49,548 nucleotides of DNA from an uncultured Desulfobacteraceae bacterium (GTDB taxonomy: Bacteria > Desulfobacterota > Desulfobacteria > Desulfobacterales > Desulfobacteraceae), in NCBI GenBank assembly GCA_913041495.1, contig CAJWHT010000018.1, positions 1-49,548 of the forward strand, given 5' to 3'. The notes under the pieces were generated by a model. It was not told the origin of the DNA and did no database searches. It saw nothing but the letters and a program-made list of their open reading frames with translations. The translations under genes and the position numbers were made by a program. Positions 5,790 to 49,548 of the stretch are shown here, in pieces (position 1 is the first letter of the stretch; every line of letters starts with the position of its first letter).

Positions 5790-6929
5790 ATGACTTTTTT
5801 CCGCATTGTGCGCAACGGGATAAAAATATTTGGGGTGGTTATTGCGGCCGCAGCCGGAATACTCCTGGTGCTCGCCGGCACCGGGTCATCCGCCCAACCA
5901 AAGGAGAAAACAATGAAAGAAAACGTCGAACAGGCAACATTTGCCGGCGGTTGTTTCTGGTGTGTGGAGTCAGCATTTGAAGGCCAGGACGGGGTGCTTG
6001 ATGTGGTCTCCGGATATATCGGCGGCCGTGTGGAAAATCCCTCCTACGAACAGGTGTCCTCGGGCACCACAGGACATGCAGAGGCTGTCCGGGTCACCTT
6101 TGACCACTCCCGGATCTCTTACCGGGAGCTGCTCAAGATTTTTTTCCAGCAGATTGACCCCACGGATGGGGAAGGATCATTCGTGGACCGGGGCAGCCAG
6201 TACAGGCCGGCCGTGTTTTATCATAGCCCGGAGCAAAAAAAACAAGCCATTGCAATGATTAAAAGAATTGAAGCGGCAAGGATTTTCAACGCCCCCTTGG
6301 CCACGGAAGTCCTTGCCGCCTCCCAGTTTTTTGAGGCAGAGGAATACCACCAGGACTACCACAGCAAAAACCCCATCCGCTACAAGTTTTACCGGGCCGG
6401 CTCCGGCAGGGACCGGTTTATCAAAAACTTCTGGCAGAACGGCAACAACCAGGTGTTTAACGAACCTGAATCAAACACCGCTGCACCAAACGTGACACTG
6501 CCTTCAGACAGTGAACTGAAAAAGCGGCTGACAGCCCTTCAGTACAAAGTGGTTCGTCAGGAGGGGACTGAACCGGCATTTGACAACGCCTATTGGAACA
6601 ACAAAGAAGAAGGGATCTACGTGGACATCGTTTCGGGAATCCCCCTGTTCTCTTCCGAAGACAAGTTCGATTCCGGTACGGGCTGGCCCAGCTTTACCCG
6701 CCCCATAGACAAGAATGAAATCCGGGAAGTGGAGGACAATTCCTTTTTCATGCGGCGGGTGGAGGTGCGCAGTAAAACGGCCGACAGTCACCTGGGCCAC
6801 GTATTCGACGACGGCCCCGCCCCTTCCGGACGCCGATATTGCATCAACTCGGCATCCCTGCGGTTTATACCGCGAGACCGTCTCGAAGCCGAAGGCTACG
6901 CTGACCTGGCACACATATTTGAAGAATAA
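5790..6929 (+). CDS. msrAB: Exported methionine sulfoxide reductase MsrA-MsrB fusion
   Basis: A 379-residue bifunctional repair enzyme. The N-terminus has a hydrophobic segment (about residues 12-31) that would export or anchor it, so it probably repairs oxidised methionine in periplasmic proteins. The MsrA domain carries GGCFWCVE with the catalytic cysteine at residue 55 and GYIGG shortly after. The C-terminal MsrB domain has GTGWPSF, the HLGHVF motif and the catalytic cysteine 351 in [10 protein letters not shown]. The usual zinc CxxC pairs of MsrB are absent, as in the zinc-free subgroup. Start chosen at the ATG with AGGA upstream; a later methionine (residue 42) would give a cytoplasmic form without the export signal. 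The two activities together handle both stereoisomers of methionine sulfoxide, fitting the nearby oxygen-handling genes. Confidence 0.93.
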
Positions 6930-6962
6930 TCAGATGAGAAGGGATGGATGCAGGAACAAAGG

Positions 6963-7880
6963 TCAGATTCTGTCCAGCACGGCGATGCCTAAAAATACCA
7001 GCATAGAAAGGTTGATCATTGCCAGACAAATCCCTGTTCTCCGGGCGGATCCGGACGGTACAAGCATCACGCCCATGGCAATGGGCAGCATCACCGCAAC
7101 GGCCATGTGACACAAGGACAATCCCGGTGAGGCAATCCATCCTTTCACCTGAAACAGGGTCATGCTGAGGCTGAACACCCCGGTCCAGATGAGAATCTGC
7201 CACCGGATTTCCTCATGGGACCAGATGGTATTGAATCCGGGGCGTTCCGGCATGCCTGCGTCAGCATCCGGGTGGCGCAGACTGATGAGCAGATAGTGGG
7301 GCAACTGCCAGAATCCAAGTGCCGCCATGACGATCCAAAGGCCGGAAACATCCGAAGCGGACATCCCTTGGGCAACAGCCGTCCATCCCATAGCCGGAGG
7401 GATCATGCCGCACAGAATCCCGGGCACCATGGCCCAGAGCGTGATTTTTTTAAGCGGGGTGTAAAGGCCGTTGTACAGTCCCAAGGCCGCAGCCCCCAGT
7501 AAAAAAGGCATGCCCCCTGCAATCCATAAAAGACCGCTTAGGCCGGAAAAAATAAGCAGGGCTGCCAGCACGGCTGCCCGTGACAACATATTGCTGTGTT
7601 TCACCAACACCCGGTCCCGGGTTCTTTCAGCGTCCTGGTCCCACACCCTGTCCTGAATATTGTTGAGAACGGCAGATCCGCAGGACAGCAGAAGGGTCAG
7701 GCCGCCAAGGGTTAAGCTATCAAGGGAAAACCTTCCGGCTGCCAGCACATGACCTGCCATCGCGGAAAGGGCAATGTAAAGGCTGAGATGAAACTTGACA
7801 AGTTCGGGTACGGCCCTGAAAGGAAACGCAACCCCGCCCTCAACAGGGTTATCCGGGAGAGTAACCGGGTTACCACGCAT
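6963..7880 (-). CDS. ctaB: Protoheme IX farnesyltransferase (heme O synthase), CtaB/CyoE
   Basis: A UbiA-family polyprenyl transferase of about 305 residues with seven to nine predicted membrane helices. The first aspartate-rich motif is NNIQDRVWDQDAERTRDR, with the tandem aspartates that bind prenyl diphosphate; the second conserved loop is in RHPDADAGMPERPGF. It attaches a farnesyl group to heme B to make heme O, the precursor of heme A. As last gene of the cytochrome oxidase operon it would supply that oxidase. The start is uncertain: 7880 overlaps the coxB stop by 11 bases, while an in-frame ATG at 7910 would overlap it by 41. No heme A synthase (CtaA) is seen in the window, so it must lie elsewhere or the enzyme uses heme O. 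Confidence 0.9.
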   Translation of the reverse strand: MRGNPVTLPDNPVEGGVAFPFRAVPELVKFHLSLYIALSAMAGHVLAAGRFSLDSLTLGGLTLLLSCGSAVLNNIQDRVWDQDAERTRDRVLVKHSNMLSRAAVLAALLIFSGLSGLLWIAGGMPFLLGAAALGLYNGLYTPLKKITLWAMVPGILCGMIPPAMGWTAVAQGMSASDVSGLWIVMAALGFWQLPHYLLISLRHPDADAGMPERPGFNTIWSHEEIRWQILIWTGVFSLSMTLFQVKGWIASPGLSLCHMAVAVMLPIAMGVMLVPSGSARRTGICLAMINLSMLVFLGIAVLDRI

Positions 7881-46090: not shown

Positions 46091-47023
46091 CTAAACTTCG
46101 GGTCTGGGATACAGTCCGCTTCTTTCAACAATCTCAGGCACTTTTTCTTCCCACTCAATGGCCATGATGTGGAAACCTGCCACCCCTTCCACTTCCTTGA
46201 GCTGCTGGATATGCTCCACACAGATATCGATGCCTTCCTGGGCCTGCGCCTTCTTGTCCACACCGGCCAGGCGTTTGATGATCTCTTCGGGCACGTCCAT
46301 GCCGGGGACCTTGTTCTTCATGTACTTGGCCATGCCCACGGATTTCATGGGGGTCATGCCGGCCATGATAAAGGCCTTTTCAGTCAGTCCTCTGTCCACG
46401 GCCCGTTTCATCCACTCTTTGAACTTGTCAATGTTGTAGATACACTGGGTCTGGATGAATTCGGCACCGCAGGCGATCTTTTTGGCAAGACGGGGAATCC
46501 GGATTTCAAACGGGTCGGCAAAGGGGTTGGCTGCCGCGCCCACGAACATCTTGGGGGGGCGCTTGATGTCGGCACCGCCCAGGAACTTGCCCTCGTCTCT
46601 CATGTGGCGGGCGGTCTGAACCAGCTGCATGGAGTCCAGATCGTGGACGTTCTGCCCCTGGGCACAGTCACCGAAACTCTGGTGGTCGCCGGAGAGGCAG
46701 AGCATATTGTTGATGTCAAAGGAGGCTGCGCCCAGGATATCACTCTGCAGGGCCACCCTATTTCTGTCACGGGTGACCATCTGGAGTACCGGTTCAATGC
46801 CTTCCAGTTTGAGATGGACGCAGGCGGCCAACGACGACATCCGGGTCATGGCGGTCTGGTTGTCGGTGACGTTGACGGCATCCACATGGTCTTTGATCAG
46901 CGCACCCTTCTCACGTACCTCTGCAGGATCCGAGCCCCGGGGGGGACCGCACTCGGAGGTTACACCCAGGTGGCCGGCTCTCATCACCTTTTCAAGTCTG
47001 CTTTCCGTTCTGCACTCGCTCAT
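46091..47023 (-). CDS. metF: Methylenetetrahydrofolate reductase, catalytic subunit
   Basis: A 310-residue MTHFR of the MetF family, read from ATG at 47023, which overlaps the metV stop (ATGA). Conserved: HLGVTSECGPPRGSDP, DAVNVTDNQTAMTRMSSLAAC, QMVTRDRNRVALQSD, and NMLCLSGDH, the folate and FAD sites; AGAEFIQTQ-like segment ACGAEFIQTQCIYNIDKF near the C-terminus. It reduces methylene- to methyl-tetrahydrofolate, the last step of the methyl branch of the acetyl-CoA pathway. The gene pair with metV, and HdrA-MvhD just upstream, indicates the multi-subunit type described from Moorella and other acetogens. Confidence 0.93.
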   Translation of the reverse strand: MSECRTESRLEKVMRAGHLGVTSECGPPRGSDPAEVREKGALIKDHVDAVNVTDNQTAMTRMSSLAACVHLKLEGIEPVLQMVTRDRNRVALQSDILGAASFDINNMLCLSGDHQSFGDCAQGQNVHDLDSMQLVQTARHMRDEGKFLGGADIKRPPKMFVGAAANPFADPFEIRIPRLAKKIACGAEFIQTQCIYNIDKFKEWMKRAVDRGLTEKAFIMAGMTPMKSVGMAKYMKNKVPGMDVPEEIIKRLAGVDKKAQAQEGIDICVEHIQQLKEVEGVAGFHIMAIEWEEKVPEIVERSGLYPRPEV

Positions 47024-47688
47024 ATCTTCACATCCTCCCTGGTTACGGTTCTGGGGCCGCCGGCTCTGTCGGTTGACCAATCTTTGATGGGGGCCACTTT
47101 TTCATAGTCATCCATTTTATCCAGCGCTTTGAGGCGGTCAACGATAAGCTGCCACGCGCAGTCCGTATCCTTGGAGATTTCGCACTTGCCGCCGGTGGAG
47201 CCGCCGCAGGGGCCGTTCAGGACGCGTTTGGCGCACCTGGATACAGGGCAAATGCCGCCGGTCCTGGCCAGCACACAGGTACCGCAGGCCTGGCAGCGTT
47301 CGGTCCAAAGTCCCCTGTCCTCATTGGCTCCGAGGCAGACAGTGTTGACGCCGGGCAGCAACGGCATTTCAAGGTACTTCTCAGCGCAAAACTGAACGCC
47401 GACACCACAGGCCAGAGATATGACGGCATCGTAATCGTCGATGTTGCCGCGGATCTCTTCTAAATACTCGTGGTCGCACTGGCGTTCCAGGGTTCTTTCC
47501 CCGATGGTTTTTTCCTTGCCCTGGGTGATGAAATACATGCGCAGGGCCGAGGCCAGGACTTCCACTTCCTTTTTGCCCCCTGCCTCGCACACCGTCACAC
47601 ACTCATTGCACCCGAGGACGAGAATACGATCGAAATCTTTGACTTCCTCAATGATTTCTTCAATGGGTTTTTTCTCTGCTATGATCAT
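47020..47688 (-). CDS. metV: MetV, Cys-rich partner of MTHFR
   Basis: A 222-residue protein with GAGGTAAG before its ATG. The C-terminal half carries the cysteine-rich MTHFR_C pattern: CQACGTCVLARTGGICPVSRCAKRVLNGPCGG, and an earlier pair of CNECV and SLACGVGVQ. MetV is the iron-sulfur/zinc partner of MetF in acetogens and sulfate reducers using the reductive acetyl-CoA pathway. It overlaps metF by 4 bases and follows mvhD by about 73. It probably carries electrons between HdrA-MvhD and the flavin of MetF. Confidence 0.9.
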   Translation of the reverse strand: MIIAEKKPIEEIIEEVKDFDRILVLGCNECVTVCEAGGKKEVEVLASALRMYFITQGKEKTIGERTLERQCDHEYLEEIRGNIDDYDAVISLACGVGVQFCAEKYLEMPLLPGVNTVCLGANEDRGLWTERCQACGTCVLARTGGICPVSRCAKRVLNGPCGGSTGGKCEISKDTDCAWQLIVDRLKALDKMDDYEKVAPIKDWSTDRAGGPRTVTREDVKI

Positions 47689-47761: not shown

Positions 47762-48208
47762 CTAGGCTGCTGCCGCGTCAGTTTTTTTTTGTTTCATCTG
47801 CTTGATGGGGTTGGGCCCCAATTTTTTTATCAGCTCAACCATTTCAGTGGCATACTGGGCAAACAGGGGGCCTTCACCGGAAGACAGGTTGTACATCCGG
47901 ACCCGCTCTCCGCCGACCCCGACCTTGTCTAAAAGCTGAGCCGCCTGTTCAATGCGCTTTCTGGCCCTAAAGTTGCCCTGGTTGAAATGACAGTCGCCTT
48001 CCATACAGCCCACGGCAAAGACCCCGTCAGCGCCCTTCTCAAAGGAACGCAGGACATGGATGAGGTCCAGTTTGCCCGTACACGGCAGACGAACGATTCT
48101 AAAATTTGTGGGTATCTTCAATCTCATGGAACCTGCCAGGTCCGCAGCTGAGTACCCTCAGAAATTACAGCAGAATGCCAGGATGACCGGCTCGAAATCT
48201 TTTGTCAT
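47762..48208 (-). CDS. mvhD: MvhD/FlpD-type hydrogenase Fe-S subunit, selenoprotein with in-frame UGA
   Basis: Read from ATG at 48208 (overlapping the hdrA stop as ATGA), this is 148 residues with one in-frame TGA at 48158-48160, codon 17. The sequence around it is AFCCNF-U-GYSAADLAG; in cysteine homologues the motif is CCNWC-SYAGADLAG, so the UGA falls exactly on the conserved cysteine. After it the frame continues with VRLPCTGKLD, GADGVFAVGCMEGDCHFNQGN and a Lys/Ala tail, a complete MvhD. Reading without selenocysteine would leave only a truncated 121-residue product from 48127 that lacks the CCNxC motif. Selenocysteine forms of MvhD are known in related anaerobes. It carries electrons between HdrA and a partner such as MetV-MetF. 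Confidence 0.9.
48123..48160 (-). promoter_or_regulatory. Candidate bacterial SECIS region downstream of the mvhD UGA
   Basis: Just after the UGA (48158-48160) the mRNA can pair CTCA (48149-48152) with TGAG (48123-48126) and CTGC (48144-48147) with GCAG (48133-48136) around a GGACCTG loop at the distance expected for a bacterial selenocysteine insertion element. An alternative GGACCT/AGGTTCC stem is also possible. No single fold is clearly superior by eye. Confidence 0.4.
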
Positions 48209-49548
48209 ATTACCCCCTCCAGCAAGGATTCCACCTTGCTGAGCAATGATTCATCTTCATACCAGTTGAGTTTAATGGTTTTAGCCGGACATTCGGATGC
48301 GCAGACCCCGCATCCCTGGCACAGGGCCGGATCGATGTAGGACACGCCCATCTCGTTGATCACGGGTACGTTGTAGGGACAGGATCTCACGCAGACCAGA
48401 CAGGATGCGCAGTTGGTCTGGTTCACCTCGGCCACCACCGCTGACAGGGTCAGATATTCCTGGGCCAGGAAGGTGGTCGCCCTGGAGGCGGCCGCCATGG
48501 CCTGGGAGATAGTTTCCGTGATCAGTTTGGGACCGTGGGCCGTACCGCAGATGAAGACACCTTCGGTGGCGGCATCCACCGGACGCAGCTTGACGTGAGC
48601 TTCCATGAAGAACCCTTCGGGATTCCGCTGGGTCTTGATGATAGTGGACAATTCCTCTGTGTCGCTGGCAGCAACGCCTGCACTCAGGGCCACAAGATCA
48701 CACTCTGCTTCCACCATCTGTCCTAAAACATGATCGCGGAAAGTAACGGACAATCCGTCGTCGGTCTGGTTGACCTGGGGCGGATTCGCCTTATCAAACC
48801 GGGAGAAGATTACCCCCAGATTCCTGGCCTTGGTGTAGTACTCTTCCATCATGGAATACATCCGCATGTCACGGTAGAGGATGAAAACATCCGTATCCGG
48901 ACTCTTTTCCTTGATGGCAATGGCGTTCTTCACCGCATTCTGGCAGCAGATCCTGGAACAGTTGGGGTTGTCGTCGTTTCTGGAACCAACGCATTGGATC
49001 ATCACCACACGGTTCGGATCACCCAGTTTTCCCTCTTCCATCATGTCGGCCAGCTCAAGCTGGGTGACAACCCGCTCGCTGTCGTTGTAAAGGTACTCTT
49101 TGGGCTGATATTCGGTGGCGCCCGTGGCAACGATCATGACGCCATGGTCGATTTTCTTTTCCACCATGGAGGAACCCACCAAAACTTCTGTCTTGAAGTT
49201 GCCCTTGTAGCCGCCAAAACCCACCACAAGGCCTTGTTTGAGGACGTCTATCTTGTCGTGGTCTTCCACATAGTTCACCAAACCGTTTACATAGGCCTGG
49301 ACGTCGTCGCCTTCTATGGTGTGGTGGAGACGGGCTCCCAGACCGCCCAAACGGTCTTCCTTTTCCACCAATGTGACGTGGAATCCCTGGTCGGCAAGCC
49401 CTTTGGCTGCCGTCATGCCGGCGATGCCGCCGCCGATGACCAGGGCCTTGTCAATGATGGAAATCTTCTTGTCATGAAGGGGGCCTAAGGTGGAAACCCT
49501 GGCCACGGCCATGCGGATAAGGTCCTTGGCCTTTTCCGTGGCTTCCTC
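48205..49548 (-). CDS. hdrA: HdrA-like heterodisulfide reductase subunit A (5' end outside window)
   Basis: The C-terminal 447 codons of an HdrA-type iron-sulfur flavoprotein; the frame runs off the right edge without a start, and the ATG at 49512 is internal (the preceding codons read EEATEKAKDLIR, normal HdrA sequence). Visible: the FAD-binding GGGIAGMTAAKGLADQG, ATGATEYQP, a cysteine segment CVGSRNDDNPNCSRICCQNA, and near the C-terminus two ferredoxin clusters in CASCLVCVRSCP and CQGCGVCASECP. Its stop overlaps the mvhD start. HdrA carries the bifurcating flavin in Hdr complexes; here it probably couples to MetF via MvhD and MetV. Confidence 0.94.
   Translation of the reverse strand, partial: EEATEKAKDLIRMAVARVSTLGPLHDKKISIIDKALVIGGGIAGMTAAKGLADQGFHVTLVEKEDRLGGLGARLHHTIEGDDVQAYVNGLVNYVEDHDKIDVLKQGLVVGFGGYKGNFKTEVLVGSSMVEKKIDHGVMIVATGATEYQPKEYLYNDSERVVTQLELADMMEEGKLGDPNRVVMIQCVGSRNDDNPNCSRICCQNAVKNAIAIKEKSPDTDVFILYRDMRMYSMMEEYYTKARNLGVIFSRFDKANPPQVNQTDDGLSVTFRDHVLGQMVEAECDLVALSAGVAASDTEELSTIIKTQRNPEGFFMEAHVKLRPVDAATEGVFICGTAHGPKLITETISQAMAAASRATTFLAQEYLTLSAVVAEVNQTNCASCLVCVRSCPYNVPVINEMGVSYIDPALCQGCGVCASECPAKTIKLNWYEDESLLSKVESLLEGVI

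Follow-up and report, generated by a model that had tools for sequence, protein, structure and literature searches.

A predicted selenocysteine at an in-frame UGA of mvhD in an hdrA-mvhD-metV-metF module from an uncultured Desulfobacteraceae bacterium

The window analysed here is a stretch of 49,548 nucleotides that makes up the entire contig C18 in the draft genome (5.77 Mb, 328 contigs, 4.63% contamination) of an uncultured Desulfobacteraceae bacterium. On its minus strand lies an hdrA-mvhD-metV-metF module with the following features, where signed codon numbers are counted from the in-frame UGA:

48205..49548, minus strand: hdrA, C-terminal 447 residues; its UGA stop codon and the start of mvhD overlap
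48213..48220, minus strand: Shine-Dalgarno-like GGAGGGGG read from the sequence, with 4 nt between it and the mvhD ATG
47762..48208, minus strand: mvhD (FlpD family), 148 residues, with the predicted selenocysteine (Sec) as residue 17
48158..48160, minus strand: in-frame UGA, codon 17, predicted selenocysteine, context CCNF-U-GY
48131..48145, minus strand: five codons, +5 to +9, in which 54 of 54 distinct orthologues, and L115 as well, show no synonymous change
48129..48143, minus strand: SECIS-like apical hairpin GGACCU-GGC-AGGUUC, its GGC loop starting 20 nt after the UGA
47020..47688, minus strand: metV (PF12225, methylene-THF reductase C terminal)
46091..47023, minus strand: metF (MTHFR family); its start is probably ATG 47023, which forms an ATGA overlap with the metV stop

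Because the window is the whole contig, hdrA is truncated by the contig end; the full-length HdrA of a Desulfotignum relative (L064) has 1,416 residues with an N-terminal Fer4_20/Pyr_redox_2 part. The mechanical ORF for metF (46091-47080) begins at TTG 47080, and we prefer the ATG at 47023 because of the ATGA overlap, which is also seen in L064 (5487..6155 and 6152..7084). A collection of named genomes contributed 28 related loci, all of which show the order hdrA-mvhD-metV, with metF next in 27; the stretch of L086 stops short of metF, and the metV of L084 and L085 lies about 1.4 kb further downstream. Upstream of hdrA, where about 750 bp (L064), 800 bp (L082) and 1,160 bp (L152) were at hand, no plus-strand ORF is listed, and neither hdrB nor hdrC, both part of the Moorella and Sporomusa clusters, was seen in these short stretches. 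A plasmid search with the mvhD-metVF stretch gave no match.

The mvhD frame (48208..47762, minus strand) comprises 149 codons counting the final stop and translates as MTKDFEPVILAFCCNF, a stop and then GYSAADLAG...; its single internal TGA is codon 17, placed between MTKDFEPVILAFCCNF and GYSAADLAGSMRLK. The sequence-only reading had assigned this UGA to the site of the last Cys in the CCNxC motif of homologues, and the frame translation and an alignment to solved structures agree on it. One solved MvhD chain matches the window protein with an E value of 5.9e-42 in a sequence search of solved structures, and codon 17 aligns with a Cys of the CxxC motif in solved MvhD chains. In PDB 9sfi_K the residue opposite codon 17 is written X, as is one at the second motif; the alignment with Cys-containing MvhD proteins proposed earlier has placed the UGA opposite a Cys of CxxC and, in this chain, opposite an X. 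A literature search for PDB 9SFI found no paper. At the 5' end, the mvhD ATG (48208-48206) overlaps the hdrA stop TGA (48207-48205) as ATGA, which is seen directly in the sequence and confirms the start proposed previously. The mechanical ORF list begins mvhD at 48127 with 121 residues, exactly what had been foreseen for an automatic caller. With read-through, the PF02662 profile scores 155.4 bits over positions 1-123 of 123, versus 121.5 bits and positions 21-123 for the short ORF, and the domain spans the UGA. The observation made by the sequence-only reading is confirmed. Chance is excluded as an explanation for the frame across the UGA.

We defined an orthologue as a match of at least 66% identity and searched 86 genomes of the family, the source genome included. 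Among the matches listed, 56 of the 86 genomes carry such an mvhD orthologue, and the UGA occupies the CxxU codon in all 56 (55 found by pattern, whereas the 56th, L115, was read individually); below these rows the remaining matches listed are at most 55% identical. G034 provides an extra CCNYUGY case, its mvhD match being broken in two without a row reaching 66%. Possible Cys exceptions were inspected in the metF-bearing stretches of G034, G048, G003, G004, G068, G033 and G085. G004 retains only mvhD residues 60-146 (69%), its contig ending before the UGA codon; an mvhD match is absent from the fetched metF stretches of G003, G068, G033 and G085; and G048 was counted as another module because its MvhD is 49% and its adjoining HdrA 41% identical. 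No Cys form was found among orthologues of at least 66% identity. The named loci, which include Desulfotignum, Desulfobacula, Desulfocicer vacuolatum and an Olavius endosymbiont, have CxxU at the same codon in 26 of 28 cases; 17 of the 28 are identical to an unnamed orthologue over 216 nt, so that the two sets overlap. In two metV-adjacent mvhD genes (L086:5001-5408 and L087:1205-1612) the first motif reads CxxC and the UGA is found at the second, as AGULEGDC. The predicted Sec site is not the same in these related modules as in that of the window.

The mvhD codons upstream and downstream of the UGA are under purifying selection. Across 54 distinct orthologues we obtained uncorrected nonsynonymous/synonymous ratios of 0.080 (codons -12 to -1) and 0.118 (codons +12 to +107); L115, which the pattern had missed, stands outside the codon counts and ratios and was read separately. 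Synonymous differences per site amount to 0.763 before the UGA and 0.719 after it, and drop to 0.077 in codons +4 to +10. Within this segment codons +5 to +9 read GCG GAC CTG GCA GGT, identically in all 55 distinct orthologues. Among 85 degenerate columns with a conserved amino acid only six are invariant, five of them consecutive, and a run of five invariant codons arose in 1 of 200,000 column shuffles. As a control we used 23 segments of Cys paralogues, 20 from relatives and three from the source genome, and these do vary at the hairpin codons (e.g. GAT in 13 and GAC in 10).

The five invariant codons make up most of the hairpin GGACCU-GGC-AGGUUC. According to the accessible parts of a 2026 review (PMC13188914), bacterial SECIS elements have a loop of 3-9 nt with a G in the first two loop positions, a spacing of 16-37 nt, an upper stem of 4-16 bp and an energy of at most -7.5 kcal/mol. 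The mvhD hairpin agrees with the shape rules (loop GGC, spacing 20 nt, 6-bp stem). Its energy is -10.0 kcal/mol when the 45 nt after the UGA are folded and -4.5 kcal/mol for the apical hairpin alone, against the limit of -7.5. For the window copy, a fold of equal or greater stability is reached by 5,277 of 20,000 synonymous shuffles. A scan for loop and spacing passes 7 of 7 UGA sites in the MvhD proteins of the genome, but also 14 of 23 Cys controls, and adding the energy limit leaves 2 of 7 UGA sites and 6 of 23 controls. A GG loop is absent at two of the seven UGA sites (L025 and the second site of L020), and ACCTG follows all seven UGAs at a fixed offset, 20 for the first motif and 23 for the second. 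Rfam gave no match at the gathering threshold anywhere in the window. Because folding energy by itself does not discriminate, the case for the hairpin rests on comparative conservation. The check for a bacterial SECIS element that the sequence-only reading had proposed for 48120-48160 yields a conserved hairpin at 48143-48129, inside that range, although its energy alone is not decisive.

All four components of the Sec machinery to be looked for, selA, selB, selC and selD, were found in the source genome. The tRNA-Sec (selC) lies on C85 (74.6 bits at a cut-off of 47) and is called tRNA-SeC with anticodon tca by ARAGORN. SelA was recovered on C22 with 605 bits. SelB is present in two pieces at contig ends (C20:45243-46211 and C313:46-981), a split that is probably an assembly-end artefact; the pieces have a short LDREEL stretch in common, after which they diverge. 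There are two selD genes (C31:12717-13640 and C39:2378-3307), each with an in-frame UGA in the contexts AAGUAAK and TCGUAAK. Both SelD copies probably contain Sec themselves, and their GUAAK context fits the UxxK that the review gives as the Sec motif of SelD (PMC13188914, accessible parts). In the family, SelB is detected at an E value of 1e-60 or better in 77 of 86 genomes and in all 42 genomes with a completeness of 90% or more and a contamination of 5% or less. From the machinery, the conservation of the UGA and the hairpin codons we infer that the window mvhD almost certainly encodes a selenoprotein with codon 17 decoded as Sec, as was originally suggested. SelB carrying Sec-tRNA would read the UGA as Sec, directed by the short hairpin 20 nt downstream, and Sec would replace the last Cys of the N-terminal CCxxC motif.

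What else could account for the UGA? If it were a real stop, translation from the internal ATG at 48127 would yield a short MvhD lacking the CCxxC motif. The mechanical caller does find this ORF, and AGGTTC-N-ATG, which resembles a weak ribosome-binding site plus start, follows the UGA in 54 of 54 distinct orthologues and may serve for internal initiation in most orthologues. However, in L115 the internal ATG is replaced by ATT while the UGA and the five hairpin codons are all retained, and internal initiation is for this reason disfavoured as the cause of the codon conservation. The invariant stretch moreover starts 18 nt upstream of the internal ATG, the low ratio of 0.080 marks the 12 codons before the UGA as selected coding sequence, solved MvhD chains retain the N-terminal motif, and CxxU occurs at the same codon in three more FlpD paralogues of the genome. 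With the Sec machinery present, and given the upstream purifying selection and the behaviour of L115, we consider it very improbable that the UGA is a real stop followed by internal initiation, and rejected this reading.

A reading of the UGA as some other amino acid, by code reassignment or near-cognate read-through, has the open frame as its sole point in favour. Against it, hdrA itself terminates in UGA, codon 17 aligns with Cys in homologues, the in-frame UGAs of FlpD proteins are confined to two Cys motifs, and tRNA-Sec occurs together with SelA, SelB and SelD; on the hdrA stop, the Cys alignment and the machinery we consider this explanation extremely improbable and rejected it. A sequencing error or a decaying pseudogene might be suspected in a draft of 328 contigs with 4.63% contamination, but the frame is intact with purifying selection on either side, and the UGA also appears in 55 orthologues from other genomes and in the 26 of 28 named loci (overlapping sets). 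Since independent assemblies share the UGA, this account was discarded as next to inconceivable. The sequence-only reading had listed a genome without selB or selC, an erroneous UGA and a decayed gene as outcomes that would speak against Sec; selB and selC are present, and the retention of the UGA in other genomes under purifying selection points to neither error nor decay.

The predicted decoding of codon 17 as Sec also has parallels elsewhere in the genome, which holds 12 FlpD domains, six of them with an in-frame UGA and one of these six with two. The UGAs fall at two Cys motifs, the N-terminal CxxU and a second motif, GU-x3-(D/E)C. CxxU copies are those of C18 (the window), C28, C69 and C9:6400, and second-motif copies those of C9:2635, C120 and C9:6400 (the last with SEC). 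Besides the window, the UGA-containing FlpD/MvhD copies are:

C9:2635-3003 (L016)
C9:6400-6768 (L020), which has both motifs
C28:6577-6945 (L022)
C69:19707-20078 (L025)
C120:8453-8821 (L019)

HdrA-like stretches of C9 and C120 likewise show a TGA in frame within DCA(I/M)U (L116:3225-3227, plus strand; L117, on C120, minus strand), and probably contain Sec as CxxU.

Sec forms of MvhD were taken as known by the sequence-only reading, and the accessible parts of three papers agree (PMC2702500, PMC5109826, PMC13188914); such forms have been published for related sulfate reducers and for methanogens. Desulfobacterium autotrophicum HRM2 has Sec in mvhD1, 2, 3 and 5 (PMC2702500), and Desulfococcus multivorans has a Sec MvhD, dmul_C28840/50 (PMC5109826). 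Both are, like the organism of the window, sulfate-reducing Desulfobacteraceae in which an mvhD with an in-frame UGA occurs together with Sec machinery, and in D. autotrophicum an mvhD comes after nearly every hdrA/hdrL gene, as in the window (PMC2702500). The review lists FrhD/MvhD/VhuD (PF02662) with the motif CxxU, two Sec residues and experimental verification (PMC13188914). This family and PDB 9sfi_K share family and CxxU position with the window protein, which differs from the review's form in having one Sec instead of two, and archaeal SECIS elements are of another type than the hairpin described here (PMC13188914). The mvhD case is therefore a gene-annotation correction rather than a new phenomenon. 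What we add is that the MvhD of the MetVF module is a predicted Sec form in every orthologue examined; a statement that MetVF-linked MvhD is a selenoprotein was not found in the accessible parts of PMC2702500 and PMC5736913.

The gene order HdrA-MvhD-MetV-MetF is shared with the HdrCBA-MvhD-MetVF systems of Moorella thermoacetica and Sporomusa ovata, and the extra N-terminal pyridine-nucleotide-oxidoreductase domains in the HdrA of L064 resemble Moorella HdrA (PMC9430772). A pull-down with tagged MvhD in Sporomusa recovered HdrA, HdrB and MetF (PMC9430772). The MvhD described here is a predicted selenoprotein, whereas 'selen' occurs 0 times in the Moorella/Sporomusa paper. Structurally studied MvhD relatives carry one [2Fe-2S] cluster, which feeds electrons to the bifurcating FAD (PMC12350162, PMC6019823, accessible parts). 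On the basis of gene order and of the Moorella and Sporomusa systems, MvhD most likely serves as the electron relay in an HdrA-MvhD-MetVF reductase, where it would pass electrons within the methylene-THF reductase of the Wood-Ljungdahl pathway. We hypothesize that Sec tunes or protects the [2Fe-2S] cluster of MvhD.

Four hdrA-mvhD-metV-metF modules are present in the genome, two of the Sec type (C18, C28) and two of the Cys type (C129, C142). The module at C142:3704-7211 (L121) resembles that of the window most in MetF (85% identity) and MetV (77%), versus 43% for HdrA and 52% for MvhD, and the MvhD of its HdrA-MvhD pair is all-Cys. The same pattern of similar MetVF with different HdrA-MvhD is seen in G019, G060 and G062. 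Of the 56 genomes in which the Sec orthologue occurs, at least 28 additionally encode, no more than 1.5 kb from a metF, an MvhD free of UGA.

Could Sec and Cys HdrA-MvhD relays be kept for the same MetVF and be switched by selenium supply? Methanococcus is known to switch isoenzymes in response to selenium (PMC11097638), and for D. autotrophicum a replacement when selenium is limiting has been suggested (PMC2702500), both according to the accessible parts of these papers. For the present modules, the side-by-side gene sets make such a switch conceivable, though we regard it as somewhat doubtful. If it is true, Methanococcus with its selenium-regulated isoenzymes would have a bacterial counterpart in the Wood-Ljungdahl pathway, and the MetVF-linked clade would be an MvhD lineage dependent on selenium.

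For annotation, the consequence is that gene callers stopping at UGA truncate mvhD at the internal ATG, as they probably do in the orthologues too. Because the N-terminal Cys motif is lost in this way, electron-transfer models built on truncated mvhD annotations would be wrong at the MvhD step. The combination of Sec-only orthologues, coexisting Cys modules and an invariant hairpin makes two ideas testable, namely that the HdrA-MetVF relay may need Sec and that sulfate reducers may swap relays according to selenium supply.
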